From assembly GCF_016405885.1 (NCBI RefSeq), contig NZ_JAEKGC010000002.1, forward strand, positions 124,001-188,000: 64,000 nucleotides of DNA. Direction: 5' to 3'. The translations under genes and the position numbers were made by a program. This DNA comes from Arthrobacter sp. MSA 4-2 (GTDB taxonomy: Bacteria > Actinomycetota > Actinomycetes > Actinomycetales > Micrococcaceae). The notes under the pieces are model-generated. The model saw only the letters and a program-made list of their open reading frames with translations. It did not search any database and was not told where the DNA came from. Below, piece after piece: positions 48,170 to 57,535 of the stretch; position 1 is the stretch's first letter; every line of letters begins with the position of its first letter.

Positions 48170-48925
48170 CTACCTCAGGATCCGCTCGATGGCGGCCGCG
48201 GCAACGCAGACGCGGGCGCCGATCTGTTCAGCCGGCACCTCGCTGCTCAGGTAGACAACCGCAAGGGCTGCCGGAAGCTGCCCGGTGACGCGGATAGGGG
48301 CGCCGATCGAACTGACACCGGGAATCACCTCGTCCCGGCTGAAGGCGAAGCCGGTGCGGGCCGCCGTCCGGGACTCCTTCCGGTACGGCTCCCCCGGCGC
48401 CAGTTGCTCCCACTGCTCCTCGGTCAGCGCCGACTGGATCGCGATCCCGGGTGCTCCCGCCGTGAAGGAATGCCGGGTGCCCGGCCGCTGCACGAGCGCC
48501 CCTTCGCCGCGGGGCGGTTCGACGGCCACCAGGGTGACGCACTGGCGGCGGTCCCACACGGCGATGAAGGCGCTCATCTGGAGGGAGGTGGACAGCGCCG
48601 TGAGCTCGGGCAGCGCCGCGCTCTGCAGCTTCCGCGCCACCCCCCTGGCCAGGGCCGCCAGCCCCGGGCCGGGCCAGAACCGTCCGCCGTCGTCCCTGAG
48701 CACGAGGGAGTGATCCTCGAGGGTGCGGAGAATGCGGTAGGCGATGGAGCGGTGGACCCCCAGGGAGCCGGCGATCTCGGCAATGGTCATCCCGGCGGTG
48801 GACTCGGCGAGCACTTCGAGGACCCGGATGCCGCGCGAGAGGGTCTGGGACGTGGACGACGCCGTGGCCTTCGGGGCGGTGACGCCCGGGGACACCGCCG
48901 ATTCCCCGATGCCCATCCTGCTCAC
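48170..48925 (-). CDS. IclR family transcriptional regulator
   Basis: A 251-residue regulator with a winged helix-turn-helix (about 28-90; MTIAEIAGSLGVHRSIAYRI) and an IclR effector-binding domain ending in ERILR. The start GTG at 48925 overlaps the stop of the flavoprotein monooxygenase, so it is translated with it. PcaU/PobR-type IclR members control aromatic catabolism through palindromes like the two seen at 50851-50885. An aromatic acid or ring-cleavage intermediate as effector is inferred. Confidence 0.92.
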   Translation of the reverse strand: MSRMGIGESAVSPGVTAPKATASSTSQTLSRGIRVLEVLAESTAGMTIAEIAGSLGVHRSIAYRILRTLEDHSLVLRDDGGRFWPGPGLAALARGVARKLQSAALPELTALSTSLQMSAFIAVWDRRQCVTLVAVEPPRGEGALVQRPGTRHSFTAGAPGIAIQSALTEEQWEQLAPGEPYRKESRTAARTGFAFSRDEVIPGVSSIGAPIRVTGQLPAALAVVYLSSEVPAEQIGARVCVAAAAIERILR

Positions 48926-50823
48926 GCGCTCCCGACCGGGCGGGCGAGGAGCTGGGGTGCGAAGAACGCGGCCAGCTCGGCGGTGGCCGCCAACGGAAGA
49001 ACGTTCGCCACGTACTGGTCCGGACGGACGACGACGACCGCACCGGCCCGGTCGATGCTCCGCAGGTCGAAGATGTCCGCCGCCGGGTCCACCGCGTAGA
49101 CCTTTTCGTAGTTAGTGAGCCCGAAAGGCCCGACCGGGGGCTGGAAGACGCCCGGCACATCCCCGATGTCGATCTGGGTGTGCTTCTGCTGGTGAATGAC
49201 CACGACGTCGAACCACGCGTCGGGGTCGAGGCCCTGCGGGGTGGCCGCGAGCGGGGATTCCGCCGCATTGGCCATCCAGTCGGCGAGCGCCGCCGCACCG
49301 GATCCGGCCCCCGGTGCGGCCGCATCGGCGAAGACGTAGATCCGCCAGCGGCCGTCGGCGGTCGCCTGGTGGCCAAGGTGCAGGGGAACGCCGTCGCACA
49401 CGCGCACGACGGGCGCGGACTTGAACCGCTTGCCGATCGGGAATCCTGAAGCGATGTCCTGGTGCGCTGGTTCGGCGACCAGGAGGGAGGGCGAGTACTG
49501 GGTCATGAAGCCCATCGGGAATTCGCCGGTGCGCACATAGAAGTCCTCGAGCTCGGACGGGTCCTCAAACTCCTCCGGCTTCTTGGCCATGAGCGTCGAC
49601 CACTCCTTGTCGAACTCGATGAGGTTCTTCGCCACGACCTGGCGCTCCGCCGAATAGGTCGACAGCAGGGCCTCGGGGCTGCGCCCCTCCAGCACATGCC
49701 CGAGCTTCCAGCCGAGATTGAACCCGTCCTGCATCGATACGTTCATGCCCTGGCCCGCCTTGGCGCTGTGCGTGTGGCAGGCGTCCCCGGTGATGAAGAC
49801 CCGCGGTGTGCGGAGTCCCACCTCCTCGGGGAGGACGTCGTCGAACCGGTCGCTGAGGCGGTGGCCCACTTCGTACACGCTGTGCCACGCGACGTGGCGC
49901 ACATCGAGCGTGTAGGGGCTGAGGATCGTGTTGGCCTTGGCGATGATCTGCTCGAGGGTGGTCCGGCGCACGGCACCGTTGTCGTCCGGTGGGACCTCGC
50001 CCAGGTCGACGTACATGCGGAACAGGTGCCCGCCCTCGCGCGGAATGAGCAGGATGCTGCCGCCCCCACCGGACTGGATGGCGCACTTGAGGCGGATGTC
50101 GGGGAAGTCGGTGACCGCCAGCGCGTCCATCACGCCCCAGGCGTGGCGGGCCTGGTCGCCGGCCAGGGTGCAGCCGATCGCCCGGCGCACCCGGCTCCGG
50201 GCACCGTCGGCGCCGACCACGTACTTGGCCCGCACGGTACGCGGAGTGCCCGCCCGCTCCCCCGCGGTGTGCGTCAGCGTCACCTTCACCGGGTACGCCC
50301 CGTCACCCGTGACCTCGAGGTCCTCGAACTCGAAGCCGTAGTCCGGGGTCATTCGAGTCGGGGAGTTCCTCATGAATTCCGCGAAGTAGTCGAGCACGCG
50401 CGCCTGGTTGACGATGAGGTGGGGGAACTCGCTGATCACCGCCGGGTCGTCTTCGGGGCGGGCGGTGCGGATAATCCGCGCGGGATCAGCGGGATCCGGC
50501 TTCCAGAACGCCATCTCGACAATGCGGTACGCCTCCTCGGTGATCCGCTGGGCGAAGCCGAAGGCCTGGAAGGTCTCGACGCTGCGTGCCTGGATACCGT
50601 CGGCCTGGCCGATGGCGAGCCGGGCATCGCGCCGCTCCACGATCCGGGTGGTGATCCCGGGAAACTGGGACAGCTGGGCGGCGGTGATCATGCCGGCGGG
50701 GCCGGTGCCGACGATCAGTACGTCGACCTCGTCGGGAAGCTCTTCGGGGCGGTCGATGCCGGTACCGGCCGCCGGCTGGATGCGGGGATCACCCGAGACG
50801 TATCCGTGGTGGTGGAACTGCAC
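48922..50823 (-). CDS. FAD-dependent aromatic hydroxylase (phenol 2-monooxygenase / MobA-like)
   Basis: Single-component class A flavoprotein that hydroxylates a phenolic ring with NAD(P)H and O2. GTGPAG (39-44) binds ADP, VVGADGARSRVRR is the DG motif, and FITGDACHTHSAKAGQGMN near 340 is the GD motif. A C-terminal thioredoxin-like domain as in phenol hydroxylase and 3-hydroxybenzoate 4-monooxygenase follows; 633 aa. I prefer the GTG at 50823 (QFHHHGYVSGDPR start, GAGGAAG upstream) over the GTG at 50835. Context suggests it makes 3,4-dihydroxyphenylacetate from a monohydroxyphenylacetate; 3-hydroxybenzoate is an alternative. Confidence 0.9.
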   Translation of the reverse strand: MQFHHHGYVSGDPRIQPAAGTGIDRPEELPDEVDVLIVGTGPAGMITAAQLSQFPGITTRIVERRDARLAIGQADGIQARSVETFQAFGFAQRITEEAYRIVEMAFWKPDPADPARIIRTARPEDDPAVISEFPHLIVNQARVLDYFAEFMRNSPTRMTPDYGFEFEDLEVTGDGAYPVKVTLTHTAGERAGTPRTVRAKYVVGADGARSRVRRAIGCTLAGDQARHAWGVMDALAVTDFPDIRLKCAIQSGGGGSILLIPREGGHLFRMYVDLGEVPPDDNGAVRRTTLEQIIAKANTILSPYTLDVRHVAWHSVYEVGHRLSDRFDDVLPEEVGLRTPRVFITGDACHTHSAKAGQGMNVSMQDGFNLGWKLGHVLEGRSPEALLSTYSAERQVVAKNLIEFDKEWSTLMAKKPEEFEDPSELEDFYVRTGEFPMGFMTQYSPSLLVAEPAHQDIASGFPIGKRFKSAPVVRVCDGVPLHLGHQATADGRWRIYVFADAAAPGAGSGAAALADWMANAAESPLAATPQGLDPDAWFDVVVIHQQKHTQIDIGDVPGVFQPPVGPFGLTNYEKVYAVDPAADIFDLRSIDRAGAVVVVRPDQYVANVLPLAATAELAAFFAPQLLARPVGSA

Positions 50824-50850
50824 GGGCTTCCTCACTTCGTTGTGGTGAAA

Positions 50851-50865
50851 GTTCGATTATCGAAC
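50851..50865. promoter_or_regulatory. IclR-type operator 1
   Basis: GTTCGATTATCGAAC, a perfect 15-nt dyad (7-bp arms around a central T). It closely resembles the PcaU/PobR operator consensus GTTCGATAATCGCAC. It lies 28 bp upstream of the hydroxylase start. Confidence 0.8.
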
Positions 50866-50870
50866 GCCTC

Positions 50871-50885
50871 GTTCGACTATCGTAC
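50871..50885. promoter_or_regulatory. IclR-type operator 2
   Basis: GTTCGACTATCGTAC, a second, imperfect copy of the same palindrome starting exactly 20 bp after the first, i.e. about two helical turns, on the same DNA face. Confidence 0.75.
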
Positions 50886-51007
50886 GGCTGATGCTACTGC
50901 CGGGCCGGTGAGCGGACAAGGCCCGGCTTCCCGGCACTCCGGGGGTCGAACGGCGGACCGGGCGGTGGCTCTCCATTTCCCTGGTCGGAGCGGCGTACCT
51001 CCGGTCC

Positions 51008-51036: not shown

Positions 51037-51046
51037 TCGTATACGA
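51037..51046. promoter_or_regulatory. GntR-type operator overlapping the transcription start
   Basis: TCGTATACGA, a perfect 10-bp palindrome fitting the FadR/GntR half-site pattern (GT...AC). It directly follows the -10 box, so binding would repress. A GntR regulator is the second gene of the operon. Confidence 0.6.
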
Positions 51047-51071
51047 TTTCGTACTGCCTGAGGAGCGCCCC

Positions 51072-52547
51072 CTGGAACTGGCCACCGAATCCACCCTGGC
51101 CGCGGCCCGCAAGGTCATCGCCGTGCACCTCAACTATCCGAGCCGGGCCGCCCAGCGGGGACGCACCCCGGAGCAGCCCTCCTACTTCCTCAAGCCGCCG
51201 TCCTCCCTGGCGCTCAGCGGATCCCCCGTCGAGCGCCCGGCCGGCTGTGAACTCCTCGGCTTCGAGGGCGAGATCGCGCTGATCATCGGCAGGCCGGCAC
51301 GCCGCGTCGGCATCGACGCCGCCTGGAGCCACGTCGGCTGGGTGAGCGCCGGCAACGACCTGGGCGTCTACGACCTGCGGTACGCGGACAAGGGCTCCAA
51401 CCTGCGGTCCAAGGGAGGCGACGGGTTCACCCCCATCGGCCCCGGCCTCATTCCCGCGGACTCTGTGGATCCGGCCTCCCTGCGCATCCGCACCTGGCAC
51501 AACGGCGCCCTGGTCCAGGACGACACCACCGCGGACCTGCTCTTTCCCTTCGCGCGGCTCATCGCCGACCTGTCCCAGCTGCTGACCCTTGAGCCCGGTG
51601 ACATCATCCTCACCGGCACCCCCGCGGGGGCCTCGGTCGCCGCGCCCGGCGACGTCATCGAGGTAGAAGTCTCGGACGCCCGGACGGCGGACGGGAGCCC
51701 CGGGCCCACCTCCGGGCGGCTGCTCACCCGCGTCGAGCAGGGATCGGTTCACTTCGCTGACTTCGGCGCTCTCCCCCGGGCCGATGACCTCCAGCGGGAG
51801 GAAGCGTATGGATCCCGCGAAGCCGCGGGCCTGCCGACACCGGAACCGGTCCTCACCCCGGCGTTGAAGGCGGCGCTTGAAAGCGTCTCCACCGCCACCC
51901 TGTCCTCCCAGCTCCGCAAGCGCGGGCTCAATAACGTGAGCATTGACGGGCTCACCTCCACCCGCCCGGAAAAGCGGATCGTGGGGCTGGCCCGCACCCT
52001 GCGGTACGTGCCCAACCGGGAGGATCTCTTTGCCGGCCATGGCGGAGGCTACAACGCGCAGAAACGGGCAATCGACTCCGTCAACGAGGGCGAGGTCCTG
52101 GTGATGGAGGCGCGGGGGGAAAAGGGAACGGGCACCGTCGGGGACATCCTGGCCCTGCGCGCCCAGGTCCGCGGCGCCGCAGCCATCATCACCGACGGCG
52201 GGGTCCGGGATGTCTCCGCCGTGGCCGCCCTGGACATGCCCACCTACTACGCCAATCCCCATCCCGCCGTCCTCGGCCGCCGGCACATCCCGTGGGACAC
52301 CGACATCACCATCGCCTGCGGCGGCGCCACGGTCCAGCCCGGCGACATCATCGTCGCGGACGCCGACGGCATCCTGGTGATCCCGCCGGCACTCGCCGGG
52401 GAACTCGCCGGAGATTCAATCGCCCAGGAGCGCGAGGAAGCGTTTATCGCCGAAATGGTCGAACAGGGCCACAGCGTCGACGGGCTCTACCCCCTGAACG
52501 CCGCCTGGCGCACCCGGTATGACCAGTGGGCGGCGGAGCGTGGCTGA
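51072..52547 (+). CDS. FAH-domain / RraA-like fusion protein of the homoprotocatechuate pathway (HpaG-like)
   Basis: About 491 residues. The N-terminal half is a fumarylacetoacetate-hydrolase fold with metal ligands Glu65 and Glu67 (GFEGEIALI) and Asp96 (GNDLGVYDLR). The C-terminal half (about 262-485) is an RraA/HMG-aldolase fold with GDILALRA and DGGVRD (about 375), the Mg/pyruvyl-binding residues. Classical HpaG has two FAH halves (decarboxylase and isomerase); here the second is replaced. The coding frame extends upstream of the first GTG (51123) to CTG at 51072, six bases after AGGAG, so I take CTG as start. It is the first gene of the hpa operon. Confidence 0.85.
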   Translation: MELATESTLAAARKVIAVHLNYPSRAAQRGRTPEQPSYFLKPPSSLALSGSPVERPAGCELLGFEGEIALIIGRPARRVGIDAAWSHVGWVSAGNDLGVYDLRYADKGSNLRSKGGDGFTPIGPGLIPADSVDPASLRIRTWHNGALVQDDTTADLLFPFARLIADLSQLLTLEPGDIILTGTPAGASVAAPGDVIEVEVSDARTADGSPGPTSGRLLTRVEQGSVHFADFGALPRADDLQREEAYGSREAAGLPTPEPVLTPALKAALESVSTATLSSQLRKRGLNNVSIDGLTSTRPEKRIVGLARTLRYVPNREDLFAGHGGGYNAQKRAIDSVNEGEVLVMEARGEKGTGTVGDILALRAQVRGAAAIITDGGVRDVSAVAALDMPTYYANPHPAVLGRRHIPWDTDITIACGGATVQPGDIIVADADGILVIPPALAGELAGDSIAQEREEAFIAEMVEQGHSVDGLYPLNAAWRTRYDQWAAERG

Positions 52548-53220
52548 GGCCGTTCCGGCGGCGCCCGCCGGCAGCAAGTCCGAGCAGGCCTACGCGCTCA
52601 TCAAGGCCCGCATCGTCGAGGGCACCTACTCCCCCGGTCACCGGCTGGTGCTCGCGCGGATCGCCGGGGACCTGGGGGTGAGCGTTGTGCCGATCCGTGA
52701 GGCGATCCGCCGGCTCGAGGCCGAAGGCCTGGTGACCTTCGAGCGCAATATCGGTGCCACCGTGGCGGGAATCGATCCCACCGAATACCTCTACACGATG
52801 CAGACCCTCAGCATCATCGAGGGCGCGGCCACCGCCTTGTCCTCACCCCTGCTCGGGGCCGCTGACATCGCCCGGGCCCGGGGCGTCAACGAGGAGATGC
52901 GCGCCTGCCTGGAGGACTTTGACCCGGTGCGCTTCACCCGGCTCAATCAGGAGTTCCACAGCGTCCTGTTCGAGCACTGCCCCAACCCGCACATCCTTGA
53001 CCTCGTGCACCGCGGCTGGAACCGGCTGGCCTCCCTGCGATCCTCGACCTTCCGCTTCGTTCCCGGCCGCGCCACCGAGTCCGTCGATGAGCATGAAGCG
53101 CTGCTGCGGCTCATCGAGTCGCAGGCGGACGCCGACGCCATCGAGAAGGCCGCCCGCCTCCACCGCAGTGCCACCCTTGACGCCTACCTCGCGCAGTCCT
53201 CTGCCGCCGATTCCAGTTAG
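52540..53220 (+). CDS. GntR family (FadR subfamily) transcriptional regulator
   Basis: A 226-residue regulator: N-terminal winged helix (EQAYALIKARIVEGTYSPGH then VSVVPIREAIRRLEAEGLV) and an all-helical FCD ligand domain with candidate metal His residues (NQEFHSVLFEHC, DEHEALL). Start taken as GTG 52540, overlapping the previous stop by 8 bp; an ATG at 52519 is possible. Likely local repressor acting at the palindrome 51037-51046, released by a pathway intermediate (inference). Confidence 0.9.
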   Translation: MAEAVPAAPAGSKSEQAYALIKARIVEGTYSPGHRLVLARIAGDLGVSVVPIREAIRRLEAEGLVTFERNIGATVAGIDPTEYLYTMQTLSIIEGAATALSSPLLGAADIARARGVNEEMRACLEDFDPVRFTRLNQEFHSVLFEHCPNPHILDLVHRGWNRLASLRSSTFRFVPGRATESVDEHEALLRLIESQADADAIEKAARLHRSATLDAYLAQSSAADSS

Positions 53221-53229
53221 GAACCTCCA

Positions 53230-54771
53230 ATGACGACCTCCAGCAGCACAGCACTCGGCCAGCACGTTCCGGAGGGGCTGCCCTCGCATATCCAGCACTA
53301 CATCGGCGGGGAGTTCGTTGACTCGCTCGGCGGGCAGACCTTCGACGTCCTGGACCCGGTGTCCAACACCACCTACGCCACCGCGGCCGCCGGTCAGCAG
53401 GAGGACGTCAACCGGGCCGTCACCGCCGCCCGGAGGGCCTTCCTCGAGGGCCCGTGGCCGACGATGAAGCCGCGCGAACGCGCCCGGGTCCTCAACCGGA
53501 TCGCCGACGCCGTCGAGGCGCAGGAATCCCGGCTCGCCGAACTCGAAACCTTCGACACCGGCCTGCCGATCACCCAGGCCAAGGGGCAGGCGCTGCGCGC
53601 GGCGGAAAACTTCCGCTTCTTCGCCGACCTCATCGTGGCCCAGTTCGACGACGCGATGAAGGTGCCCGGCTCCCAGATCAACTACGTGAACCGGAAACCG
53701 ATCGGCGTCGCCGGCCTCATCACCCCCTGGAACACCCCCTTCATGCTCGAATCCTGGAAGCTCGCGCCGGCCCTGGCCACCGGCAACACGGTCGTCCTGA
53801 AGCCGGCCGAGTTCACCCCGCTGTCGGCGTCGCTCTGGGCGCAGATCTTCCGGGACGCCGGCCTGCCCGACGGGGTGTTCAACCTCGTCAACGGCCTCGG
53901 CGAGGAGGCCGGGGACGCCCTCGTGAAACACCCGGACGTGCCGCTGATCTCCTTCACCGGCGAGACCACCACCGGACAGACGATCTTCCGCAACGCCGCC
54001 GACCGCCTCAAGGGCCTGTCGATGGAACTCGGCGGGAAGTCCCCCTGCGTGGTGTTCGCCGACGCCGACCTCGACGCCGCCATCGACTCGGCCCTCTTCG
54101 GCGTCTTCTCCCTCAACGGCGAGCGCTGCACGGCAGGCTCCCGGATCCTCGTCGAACGCGCCGTGTACGAGGAGTTCTGCGGACGGTTCGCCGCCCGGGC
54201 GAAGAACATCGTCGTGGGCGATCCGCACGATCCGAAGACCGAGGTCGGGGCCCTCGTCCACCCAGTGCACTTCGAGAAGGTCGCCTCCTACGTGGAGATC
54301 GGCAAGACCGAAGGCCGGCTCCTGGCCGGCGGCGGCCGCCCCGAGCACCTGCCGGAGGGCAACTACATCGCCCCGACGGTGTTCGCCGACGTCTCCCCCG
54401 ACGCCCGGATCTTCCAGGAGGAAATCTTCGGCCCCGTCGTCGCGATCACCGCCTTCGACACCGACGTCGAGGCCCTCGCCCTGGCGAACAACACCCGCTA
54501 CGGGCTCGCCGCGTACATCTGGACGCAGGACCTCACGCGTGCCCACACCTTCTCCCAGGGCGTCGAGGCAGGCATGGTCTGGCTCAACAGCCACAACGTG
54601 CGCGACCTGCGCACACCCTTTGGCGGGGTGAAGGCCTCCGGGCTGGGCCACGAGGGCGGGTACCGCTCCATCGACTTCTACACCGACCAGCAGGCGGTCC
54701 ACATCAGCCTCGGCCCGGTCCACACCCCGAAATTCGGAAACGTCGAGGCCTCCGCGGCCAACGAAGGCTGA
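53230..54771 (+). CDS. hpaE: 5-carboxymethyl-2-hydroxymuconate semialdehyde dehydrogenase
   Basis: NAD-dependent aldehyde dehydrogenase of 513 aa. Catalytic Cys300 lies in LNGERCTAGSRI, general base Glu266 in SMELGGKSP, and FTGETTTGQ precedes them. The neighbourhood (HpaD upstream substrate producer, HpaH, HpaI) and resemblance to HpaE support oxidation of the ring-cleavage semialdehyde to the tricarboxylate. It starts 9 bp after the GntR stop. Start ATG with AGGAACCTCCA upstream. Confidence 0.92.
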   Translation: MTTSSSTALGQHVPEGLPSHIQHYIGGEFVDSLGGQTFDVLDPVSNTTYATAAAGQQEDVNRAVTAARRAFLEGPWPTMKPRERARVLNRIADAVEAQESRLAELETFDTGLPITQAKGQALRAAENFRFFADLIVAQFDDAMKVPGSQINYVNRKPIGVAGLITPWNTPFMLESWKLAPALATGNTVVLKPAEFTPLSASLWAQIFRDAGLPDGVFNLVNGLGEEAGDALVKHPDVPLISFTGETTTGQTIFRNAADRLKGLSMELGGKSPCVVFADADLDAAIDSALFGVFSLNGERCTAGSRILVERAVYEEFCGRFAARAKNIVVGDPHDPKTEVGALVHPVHFEKVASYVEIGKTEGRLLAGGGRPEHLPEGNYIAPTVFADVSPDARIFQEEIFGPVVAITAFDTDVEALALANNTRYGLAAYIWTQDLTRAHTFSQGVEAGMVWLNSHNVRDLRTPFGGVKASGLGHEGGYRSIDFYTDQQAVHISLGPVHTPKFGNVEASAANEG

Positions 54772-54822: not shown

Positions 54823-55899
54823 ATGACCGGCTTCGTTCCCACCCCCACCCTCCCGGCGCCCGACATCGTCCGCTGCGCCTACATGGAGATCGTTGTCACC
54901 GACCTCGCACGGTCCCGCGAGTTCTACGTCGGCGTCCTCGGCCTCCATGTCACCGAGGAGGACGAAAACACCATCTACCTGCGCTCCCTCGAGGAATTCA
55001 TCCACCACAACCTGGTCCTGCGGCAGGGGCCCGTGGCGGCCGTCGCCGCCTTCGCCTACCGGGTGAAGTCGCCCGCCGAGGTGGACGCCGCGGAGGCGTA
55101 TTACAAGGAACTGGGCTGCCGCACCGAGCGCCGCCCGGAAGGGTTCACCAAGGGGATCGGCGATTCGGTCCGCGTCGAGGACCCGCTGGGCTTCCCCTAC
55201 GAATTCTTCTACGAGACCGAGCACGTCGAACGCCTGACCCAGCGCTACGACCTCTACTCCGCCGGAGAACTGGTCCGTCTCGACCACTTCAACCAGGTCA
55301 CCCCCGACGTCCCCCGCGGCCGCAAATACCTCGAGGACCTCGGCTTCCGGGTCTCCGAGGACATTCAGGATTCCGACGGCGTCACCTACGCCGCCTGGCT
55401 GCACCGCAAGCAGACCGTCCACGACACCGCCCTGACCGGCGGCGACGGCCCGCGCATGCACCACGTCGCCTTCGCCACGCACGAAAAGCACAACATCATC
55501 CAGATCTGCGACAAGATGGGGGCCCTGCGGATCTCGGACCGGATCGAACGCGGGCCCGGCCGGCACGGGGTCTCCAACGCGTTCTACCTTTACATCCTCG
55601 ACCCGGACGGGCACCGGATCGAGATCTACACGCAGGACTACTACACGGGCGACCCCGACAACCCCACGGTGACCTGGGATGTGCACGACAACCAGCGCCG
55701 GGACTGGTGGGGAAACCCCGTCGTCCCCAGCTGGTACACCGAGGCCTCTCTCGTGCTCGACCTCGACGGCAACCCCCAGCCCGTCGTGGCCCGCGAGGAC
55801 AAGAGCGAAATGGCTGTCACCGTCGGCGCCGACGGCTTCTCCTACACCCGCCAGCCTGGCGGGGAGGACAAGGGATTCAAGGTCGGCGCCCAGCTCTGA
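54823..55899 (+). CDS. hpaD: 3,4-dihydroxyphenylacetate 2,3-dioxygenase (extradiol, type I)
   Basis: Opens the ring of homoprotocatechuate next to the diol. This 358-residue two-domain vicinal-oxygen-chelate enzyme has metal ligands His155, His214 and Glu267 and second-shell His200, Arg243, His248, Tyr257 and Trp192 at the very numbers known for the Brevibacterium HPCD / Arthrobacter MndD enzymes (Fe or Mn dependent). The metal cannot be told from sequence. A clear ribosome site (GAAGAGAG) precedes the ATG. It lies 51 bp after hpaE. Confidence 0.96.
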   Translation: MTGFVPTPTLPAPDIVRCAYMEIVVTDLARSREFYVGVLGLHVTEEDENTIYLRSLEEFIHHNLVLRQGPVAAVAAFAYRVKSPAEVDAAEAYYKELGCRTERRPEGFTKGIGDSVRVEDPLGFPYEFFYETEHVERLTQRYDLYSAGELVRLDHFNQVTPDVPRGRKYLEDLGFRVSEDIQDSDGVTYAAWLHRKQTVHDTALTGGDGPRMHHVAFATHEKHNIIQICDKMGALRISDRIERGPGRHGVSNAFYLYILDPDGHRIEIYTQDYYTGDPDNPTVTWDVHDNQRRDWWGNPVVPSWYTEASLVLDLDGNPQPVVAREDKSEMAVTVGADGFSYTRQPGGEDKGFKVGAQL

Positions 55900-55952
55900 C
55901 CCCGGGGCCCGCCGAGGGCGCCTCCCCTTCCTGCTGCTGAATGGAGCACCGA

Positions 55953-56738
55953 ATGCTGAATCCGGCCACCATCGAATCGATAGCCGACGAACTGCTTGAA
56001 GCTGGACGGTCCCGCACCCCGGTTCCCCTGCTCACGGCCCGCTACCCCGCCATGACCGTCGAGGACTCCTACGCCGTCCAGCGCCTGTGGCGACAGCGCA
56101 GCGAGGACGCCGGCCGCCGGCTGGTGGGCCGGAAGATCGGTCTCACCTCGAGGGCAATGCAGGCGGCCACGGGCATCACCGAGCCCGACTACGGTGCGAT
56201 TTTCGACGACATGGTCTTCGAATCCGGGTGCTCGGTGCAGTGGGACCGGTACACCCGTCCCCGGGTGGAGGTGGAGCTGGCCTTCGTACTCAAGACCGAC
56301 CTCGCCGGACCGGGCTGCACGATCATCGACGTCCTCAACGCCACCGACTACGTCGTGCCCGCCCTGGAGATCCTCGATTCCCGGATCGAGATGGAGGGAC
56401 GCACGATTGTGGACACCATCGCCGACAACGCCGCTATGGGCGCCATGGTGCTCGGCGGCAATCCGGTGCGCCCGGAGGCGGTCGACCTGCGCTGGGTGGC
56501 CGCCATCCTCTACAAGAACCAGACGGTCGAGGAGACGGGCGTGGCCGCCGGCGTCCTGAACCATCCCGCCGCCGGGGTGCACTGGCTCGCCAACAAGATC
56601 GCCGCCCATGGGGAGGGCATGAAGGCCGGAGACACCATCCTCGCCGGTTCCTTCACCCGGCCGCTCTGGGTCGACCCCGGAGATACGATCCACGCCGACT
56701 ACGGACCCCTGGGGAGCATCACATGCCGCTTCGACTAG
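55953..56738 (+). CDS. hpaH: 2-oxo-hept-4-ene-1,7-dioate hydratase
   Basis: Adds water to the oxo-heptenedioate made after decarboxylation and isomerisation. The 261-residue protein carries the metal ligands Glu106, Glu108 (RVEVELAF) and Glu139 (PALEILDSR) at the same positions as E. coli HpcG/HpaH, plus GRKIGLTS near 59-66. The ATG at 55953 is preferred over 55941 because GGAG lies seven bases before it. It overlaps hpaI by 16 bp. Confidence 0.95.
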   Translation: MLNPATIESIADELLEAGRSRTPVPLLTARYPAMTVEDSYAVQRLWRQRSEDAGRRLVGRKIGLTSRAMQAATGITEPDYGAIFDDMVFESGCSVQWDRYTRPRVEVELAFVLKTDLAGPGCTIIDVLNATDYVVPALEILDSRIEMEGRTIVDTIADNAAMGAMVLGGNPVRPEAVDLRWVAAILYKNQTVEETGVAAGVLNHPAAGVHWLANKIAAHGEGMKAGDTILAGSFTRPLWVDPGDTIHADYGPLGSITCRFD

Positions 56739-57535
56739 CACCCGACGCCACCTTCCGGGAGGCACTGGCCGCCGCGGACCGCCCGCTGGCCGGCATGTGG
56801 GTCTGCTCCGGCAGCCCCCTGGTCGCCGAGATCTGCGCCGGGTCCGGCCTCGACTGGCTCCTGGTGGATGCCGAACACAGCCCCAACGGCCTCGAATCCA
56901 TCCTCGCCCAGCTCCAGGCCATCAACGGGTACCCAATCACCACCCTGGTCCGCCCACCGGCCAACGACACGGTGCTCATCAAGCAGTACCTTGACCTCGG
57001 CGTGCAGAACCTGCTCGTGCCAATGGTGAACACCGCCGCCGAGGCCGCGGCGGCCGTCGCCGCAACCCGCTACCCGCCCTCCGGCGTGCGCGGTGTGGGC
57101 TCCGCCCTGGCCCGGGCCGCCCGGTGGAACCGGATCCCCGGCTACCTGGCGCGCGCAGGCGAAACCATCAGCGTCACCGTCCAGATCGAGTCCACGGCGG
57201 CGGTCGACGCCGTCGAGGACATCCTCGCCGTGGACGGGGTCGACGCGATCTTCCTCGGCCCGTCGGACCTCGCCGCGTCGATGGGGCACCTCGGGGAACA
57301 GGAACACCCGGACGTGCGCGCCGCCGTCGAGAAGTGCCTGCGCGCCGCCCACGCCGCCGGCACGCCGGCCGGCGTCAACGCCTTCCGGCCCGAAACGGCG
57401 CGCGGCTACCTCGACGCCGGTGCCTCCTTTCTCCTCGTCGGGGCCGACGTCGCCCTCCTGGCGCGCGGTTCCGAAGCCCTGGCCGCCGAGTACACCGCGG
57501 ACGACTCCACCGGCGGTTCCCCGGCCGGCTACTGA
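56723..57535 (+). CDS. hpaI: 4-hydroxy-2-oxoheptanedioate aldolase
   Basis: Class II aldolase that splits the hydrated product to pyruvate and succinate semialdehyde. His52 (DAEHSPNG), Arg77 (TTLVRPPAN), Glu156 (QIESTAAVD) and Asp182 (FLGPSDLAAS) correspond to E. coli HpaI His45, Arg70, Glu149 and Asp175 with a constant offset of 7. 270 aa. It is the last catabolic gene; no succinate semialdehyde dehydrogenase or CHM isomerase (HpaF) gene follows. Confidence 0.95.
   Translation: MPLRLAPDATFREALAAADRPLAGMWVCSGSPLVAEICAGSGLDWLLVDAEHSPNGLESILAQLQAINGYPITTLVRPPANDTVLIKQYLDLGVQNLLVPMVNTAAEAAAAVAATRYPPSGVRGVGSALARAARWNRIPGYLARAGETISVTVQIESTAAVDAVEDILAVDGVDAIFLGPSDLAASMGHLGEQEHPDVRAAVEKCLRAAHAAGTPAGVNAFRPETARGYLDAGASFLLVGADVALLARGSEALAAEYTADDSTGGSPAGY

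Follow-up and report, generated by a model that had tools for sequence, protein, structure and literature searches.

How does an actinobacterium finish the homoprotocatechuate meta-cleavage pathway when the gene at the position of hpaG encodes a protein of another make-up? The question is raised by a 64,000-nucleotide stretch of Arthrobacter sp. MSA 4-2 (hereafter the window), in which a homoprotocatechuate meta-cleavage cluster has the gene order fusion-GntR-hpaE-hpaD-hpaH-hpaI (Table 1). This order is colinear with the Escherichia coli order hpaG-E-D-F-H-I, with the fusion at the G position, a regulator inserted and F absent. Classical HpaG consists of two tandem FAH domains; the window protein has one, joined in a single chain to an RraA domain, as an earlier sequence-only reading had proposed and as Pfam and a match over cut-off to family NF009399 bear out. 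We consider that in actinobacteria this fusion stands in for HpaG in the pathway, with a probability of about 0.83, on the observed architecture, gene position, co-occurrence with HpaD and lack of classical HpaG matches. Its OPET decarboxylase and HHDD isomerase activities we infer from the gene context, which strongly suggests this function.

In the Pfam search, FAA_hydrolase (PF01557) matched the first half of the fusion at 171.7 bits, against a gathering score of 23.9, and RraA-like (PF03737) matched the second half at 109.6 bits. The PF01557 score and the presence of the metal triad place the protein in the FAH superfamily. The whole protein matched NF009399/PRK12764 at 873.6 bits (cut-off 444) across model positions 14–495 of 501, and is therefore a member of that family, whose name, 'fumarylacetoacetate hydrolase family protein', carries no function. 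Both domains were present in 120/120 database relatives among the matches listed (120 of 7250), and the closest named relative is from Arthrobacter crusticola (97%). Some NF009399-type relatives bear the JGI label OPET decarboxylase/HHDD isomerase, which presumably derives from the FAH half. All HpaG models stayed under their cut-offs on the fusion: NF011750 at 119.1 versus 811 bits, TIGR02303 at 134.7 versus 276.4, and TIGR02305 at 92.7 versus 228.65. Compared with HpaG/HpcE (NF011750; TIGR02303 + TIGR02305), the fusion shares the colinear cluster position, a homologous FAH domain and the same metal triad, and presumably also substrate and product; it differs in having an RraA-fold domain in place of the second FAH domain and in the loss of the lid His-Glu pair.

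The residues named in the sequence-only reading, Glu65, Glu67, Asp96, GDILALRA (357–364) and DGGVRD (375–380), sit at the positions it gave. To compare relatives, 110 fusion sequences were extracted; one was left out for its length (L052) and the window copy (L086) was swapped for the window sequence, giving an alignment of 109 in which E65, E67, D96, D358, R379 and D380 are invariant. A CTG serves as start codon at 51072, and the equivalent codon after the same AGGAG is TTG in two relatives (L005, L007) and GTG in two others (L028, L042). Among the 109 upstream regions, only those of L003, L004 and the window copy have no in-frame ATG, GTG or TTG ahead of the conserved K14. The inverted repeat CGTATACGATTTCGTA occurs with at most three mismatches upstream of 84 of the 109 fusion genes, compared with 1/5450 base-shuffled upstreams; it is probably the site of the GntR regulator. 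More inverted repeats rich in TTCGA/TCGAA were spotted by eye in the divergent intergenic region (window 50851–50895).

Table 1 Features of the window around the fusion gene (window coordinates; scores in bits).
Feature	Position	Strand	Basis and remarks
IclR-family regulator	48170..48925	-	Pfam
FAD hydroxylase, 3-hydroxybenzoate-hydroxylase/phenol-hydroxylase type	48922..50835	-	PRK08294 1038 bits; 2dkh 659.4 bits
Operator-like element CGTATACGATTTCGTA (TACGA-TT-TCGTA inverted repeat)	51038..51053	+	Directly 5' of the ribosome-binding site
Shine-Dalgarno AGGAG	51061..51065	+	6 bases ahead of the CTG; same AGGAG in relatives
FAH-RraA fusion, 491 aa, CTG start, NF009399/PRK12764	51072..52547	+	Open frame, profile matches
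FAH (PF01557) half, residues 14-201; triad E65/E67/D96, K114; R25 and Q28 at the HpaG-C His/Glu	51111..51674	+	Pfam, alignment
RraA-like (PF03737) half, residues 274-436; D358-X20-R379-D380	51891..52379	+	Pfam, alignment
GntR/FCD regulator	52519..53220	+	Pfam; overlaps the 3' end of the fusion gene
HpaE, CHMS dehydrogenase	53230..54771	+	TIGR02299 655.5 bits, cut-off 638.35
HpaD, homoprotocatechuate 2,3-dioxygenase (VOC type)	54823..55899	+	TIGR02295 444.4 bits, cut-off 321.4
HpaH, OHED hydratase	55941..56738	+	TIGR02312 373.4 bits, cut-off 351.5
HpaI-type aldolase, putative start	56735..57535	+	TIGR02311 311.9 bits, under cut-off 368.8 but top match

The suggested check of domain architecture and gene neighbourhoods showed that the fusion belongs to a catalogued family and travels with the hpa cluster. 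Among 80 named loci (L050 included), the GntR regulator was found in 78, HpaE in 79, HpaD in 76, HpaH in 69 and HpaI in 68; the divergent hydroxylase occurred in 48. In the four loci lacking HpaD (L038, L039, L051 and L076), the sequence stops before it; six named loci gave no HpaH match and seven no HpaI match, though their sequence runs well past HpaE/HpaD. The L050 record, titled Vibrio cholerae 35D, holds an Arthrobacter-like hpa cluster with a fusion 82% identical to that of the window, and is probably a contamination or a mislabelled contig. Paenarthrobacter aurescens TC1 carries an hpa cluster with the fusion (L045), and strain Rue61a, a close relative, is reported to grow on 4-hydroxyphenylacetate and homoprotocatechuate (PMC3534580). 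The second fusion copy of P. aurescens TC1, on plasmid pTC2 (L217, 9016–10428), carries the annotation 'putative Dimethylmenaquinone methyltransferase', an older name derived from RraA.

The distribution of the fusion was surveyed in 394 genomes of the class, in which the HpaD counted was of the VOC type and clusters with a LigB-type dioxygenase (e.g., L113) lay outside the count. The fusion scored over cut-off in 31 genomes and HpaD in 32, and all 31 fusion genomes, spanning 16 genera and 9 families, carry HpaD. Several genera contain sampled members with both genes and others with neither. The co-occurrence gives a Fisher p of 3e-45 with kinship ignored, a value too small to be a true probability because the genomes are related. 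The sole HpaD genome without the fusion (G323) has a shortened HpaE adjoining HpaD, with no further match to the hpa proteins of the window within 19 kb. HpaG was counted class-wide by its C-domain (TIGR02303), with the N-domain (TIGR02305) outside the 394-genome count: the C-domain was over cut-off in 0/394 (best 228.9 versus 276.4 bits) and in 2 of 14 control genomes. Gene position, HpaD in 31/31 fusion genomes and the absence of C-domain matches over cut-off agree with the earlier claim that the fusion sits where HpaG should be. A separate complete HpaG in the window genome, which that reading had named as the finding that would count against it, was looked for with PF01557 and not found, in a search that leaves HpaH unlisted, so that divergent FAH-fold proteins can escape it; its two matches are the fusion and L001, a generic FAH protein of 257 aa. 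Counting against the replacement, the pathway annotated as homoprotocatechuate in Rhodococcus ruber is described as having a different make-up that includes a 4-oxalocrotonate tautomerase (PMC6498646).

A split version of the fusion, with adjacent FAH and RraA genes, was sought and rejected. No RraA match lay near 20 standalone FAH genes (L113–L132, of which L114–L132 were checked for matches to window proteins only), and no FAH match lay near six standalone RraA genes (L133–L138). For 19 of these 20 FAH genes (all except L124), an HpaE-like dehydrogenase lies no more than about 1.5 kb away. In L113 (7962–11257), a standalone FAH gene, akin to the FAH half, and an HpaE-like dehydrogenase flank a LigB-type dioxygenase, and the stretch has no RraA match. 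Likewise discarded as a second fusion was a 403-aa FAH protein from a Rhodococcus erythropolis BG43 plasmid (L219, 7968–9179), in which Pfam finds FAH only; its eroded RraA-like tail lacks the catalytic R-D loop, and its gene lies beside a VOC dioxygenase and near a separate 227-aa FAH.

In the mechanism we propose, the fusion would take the tri-acid made by HpaE (CHM/OPET) to OHED, on which HpaH acts. Of the two FAH domains of classical HpaG, one would have been retained and the other exchanged, in the same chain, for an RraA-fold domain. Using D358, R379 and D380, the RraA half would bind OPET by its 2-oxo acid end at a divalent metal and expel the distal carboxylate, leaving the dienol HHDD; the FAH half, which likewise has a metal site, would tautomerise CHM to OPET and/or HHDD to OHED. 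The covalent fusion may take the place of the protein–protein contact needed by the separate OPETD and HHDDI of Acinetobacter, whose complex is reported to exceed the activity of OPETD alone 60-fold and that of HHDDI alone 12-fold, each partner by itself being weak and OPETD more so than HHDDI (PMC12718150). Since the complex outperforms the single partners, tethering two unlike halves would meet the same need. We give slightly better than even odds to this division of labour, in which RraA would be the OPET decarboxylase and FAH the tautomerase. In a fuller and more doubtful version, which we offer as a tentative proposal, the RraA half would be an OPET decarboxylase of a fold unrelated to HpaG, and one chain would cover the CHM isomerase, OPET decarboxylase and HHDD isomerase steps, replacing the FAH-FAH enzyme in actinobacteria with a VOC-type HpaD.

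In the RraA half, D358, R379 and D380 share columns with D102, R123 and D124 of the Pseudomonas putida HMG/CHA aldolase (3noj), and the aldolase motif is intact in 109/109 sequences. We take D-X20-R-D to be the metal and substrate motif of HMG/CHA-type RraA-like class II aldolases. Fold family and motif columns are common to both proteins, and they differ in that 3noj matches at only 50 bits and the RraA part of the fusion is joined to FAH. Residue 404 of the fusion, the counterpart of K147 of the aldolase in the alignment, is Arg in 91 of the 109 sequences and Lys in 17. The third acidic metal ligand of the aldolase, Glu199, falls outside the aligned part; candidates for it are E453 (106/109) and E456 (93/109, with Asp in 15). 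The fusion does not reach the HMG/CHA equivalog cut-offs (PRK09262, 79.8 versus 179 bits; TIGR02798, 74 versus 304.5) and exceeds that of PRK08245 (240.5 versus 208). The best solved relative of the RraA half is 5x15 (130.1 bits), whose record is labelled a putative transferase and which we take to be RraAS2 of Streptomyces coelicolor. RraAS2, which is unfused, has been described as a member of the RNase E inhibitor family.

Precedents for decarboxylation on this fold come from two enzymes. The RraA-fold HMG/CHA aldolase is reported also to decarboxylate oxaloacetate (PMC5065237). FlDet, an RraA-family enzyme purified from Flavobacterium, strips water and CO2 from 2-keto-3-deoxyhexarate (PMC8563752); in our own chemical reading, the carboxylate it loses is distant from the 2-oxo group, as it would be in OPET. 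Set beside the fusion by its description in that paper, FlDet differs in its sugar-acid substrate, single domain and insensitivity to EDTA, which had no effect though Mg, Co and Ni activate the enzyme, and it was inactive on all four other 2-oxo acids tried. FlDet therefore falls somewhat short as a precedent for OPET decarboxylation by a metal-dependent enzyme, because its substrate use is narrow and it is EDTA-insensitive. We favour RraA as the decarboxylase because of the loss of the FAH lid His-Glu pair, the motif retained in all 109 sequences and the FlDet precedent. Nor is the RraA half needed as a spare HpaI aldolase, since an aldolase is encoded beside the fusion (HpaI-type in the window, DapA-like in L139). 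The latter, at about 8100–9079 of L139 between GntR and HpaE, is a DapA-family gene scoring 353.8 bits with TIGR02313 (below 396.7), in a stretch without an HpaH or HpaI match, and is possibly an aldolase displacement in another lineage.

The roles could also be the reverse, with the FAH half as OPET decarboxylase, like the HpaG C-domain, and the RraA half as isomerase (of HHDD and perhaps CHM) through enolisation. E65/E67/D96 align with the metal triad of the C-terminal domain of HpaG, and the two Glu are absent from its N-terminal domain. In HpcE, the C-terminal domain with the metal-binding Glu/Glu/Asp has been assigned the decarboxylase role and the N-terminal domain the isomerase role, an assignment that, according to PMC12718150, rested on the crystal structure alone. 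The triad therefore does not mark the FAH half as an isomerase, and from the alignment it would fit an FAH decarboxylase as well; the sequence-only reading, which took these residues as the mark of the kept FAH domain and proposed decarboxylation for the RraA domain, was right about their presence, but the site they form matches the HpaG domain assigned to decarboxylation. The FAH half is also closer in identity to HpaG-C (76/188) than to HpaG-N (61/193), and the HMG/CHA aldolase exchanges the methyl protons of pyruvate, an isomerase-like half reaction (PMC5065237). However, the preference for HpaG-C is generic, because L001, an FAH protein outside the pathway, shows it too (182.0 bits for HpaG-C versus 103.9 for HpaG-N), and the score preference of the FAH half was dropped as evidence. 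The Glu/Glu/Asp triad is likewise common to FAH proteins, L001 included. Moreover, the lid His and Glu of HpaG-C and L001 are replaced in the fusion by R25 (109/109) and Q28 (97/109, with Glu in 12). In FAHD1 the presumably corresponding His30-Glu33 is described as the catalytic dyad (PMC8398924), the column match to FAHD1 being drawn via HpaG-C and L001. With the triad kept, which HpaG-N lacks in its two Glu, and the lid His-Glu lost, the FAH half is neither a plain HpaG-C nor a plain HpaG-N. We regard the reversed assignment as unlikely.

An RraA half that supplies the missing HpaF (CHM to OPET isomerase), leaving a lone FAH half to decarboxylate and to isomerise HHDD, would account for a gap in the pathway. 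Of the claim that all other lower-pathway enzymes are present, the part concerning HpaE, HpaD and HpaH (over cut-off) and HpaI (best match, though under cut-off) stood, and the part concerning HpaF failed: PF02962 found no match in the window genome, in a search that recovers E. coli HpaF at 164.9 bits. PF02962 likewise gave no HpaF in the genome of P. aurescens TC1 or on pTC2, a tblastn search with the E. coli protein gave none in the 80 named loci, and no PF01361 tautomerase was found in the window genome by a search that is positive in 6 of 14 controls. Across the class, CHM isomerase was over cut-off in 26/394 genomes, of which one (G208) has the fusion, leaving 30 of the 31 fusion genomes without such a match; a single genus supplied 24 of the 27 genomes with weak matches of 24–53 bits. 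But CHM can isomerise without an enzyme, and the Acinetobacter pair OPETD and HHDDI is reported to decarboxylate the tri-acid without CHMI, which speeds the reaction (PMC12718150). HpaF thus need not be replaced: its absence may do no harm, or the fusion may make up for it; the RraA half as HpaF is an improbable reading.

The best-known role of RraA proteins is the inhibition of RNase E, and five standalone relatives that we inspected are all named 'ribonuclease activity regulator RraA'. A non-catalytic RraA half, acting as scaffold or RNase-regulating passenger, would match these names and the eroded RraA-like part of the R. erythropolis BG43 protein, but is highly improbable, given motif residues that are invariant, RNase-regulator models far under cut-off (PRK09372, 50 versus 136 bits; TIGR01935, 49.1 versus 123.8) and equal conservation of the two halves, each having 36% of its positions identical in at least 98.5% of sequences.

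The family and its domain make-up are already catalogued (NF009399), and a gene at the same position has been named hpaG in Corynebacterium. In Corynebacterium aurimucosum, the cluster order was given in 2010 as hpaGLEDHI with hpaF 'elsewhere' (PMC2830990), the same order as in the window; the passages of that paper available to us do not mention an RraA domain in its hpaG. Searching titles and the beginnings of abstracts, we found no paper tying RraA to OPET or an FAH-RraA fusion to the homoprotocatechuate pathway; subscription literature lay outside this scope, so absence is unproven, and the words RraA and homoprotocatechuate do occur together in PMC5065237. The stand-in reading offers a testable function for a widespread fusion family bearing a generic name and hints at how actinobacteria finish a textbook pathway without hpaG and hpaF. 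Should the RraA half be the decarboxylase, one catalytic half of a bifunctional enzyme would have been exchanged for an unrelated fold within a single polypeptide, the label 'RNase regulator' would conceal a catabolic enzyme, and the fusion would aid in settling the domain roles of classical HpaG.

For the upper pathway, the divergently transcribed FAD hydroxylase, whose top solved relative is a 3-hydroxybenzoate hydroxylase (2dkh), is a probable enzyme. It likely performs the ring-hydroxylating step, because an HpaB-type hydroxylase (PF03241) had no match in the window genome, by a search that finds it in 4 of 14 control genomes. Aromatic amines are likely feedstocks, as further enzymes join some of the clusters: an amine oxidase and a succinate-semialdehyde dehydrogenase on a Rhodococcus plasmid, and a phenylacetaldehyde dehydrogenase on pTC2.

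Among the five standalone RraA relatives, one gene (L227, 5989–6714) adjoins an L-arabinonate dehydratase, with an NADP aldehyde dehydrogenase also adjacent, and another (L224, 6022–6741) is one gene away from an L-arabinonate dehydratase; the remaining three have no such neighbour. The L227 and L224 proteins may act on 2-keto-3-deoxypentonate and not on RNase.
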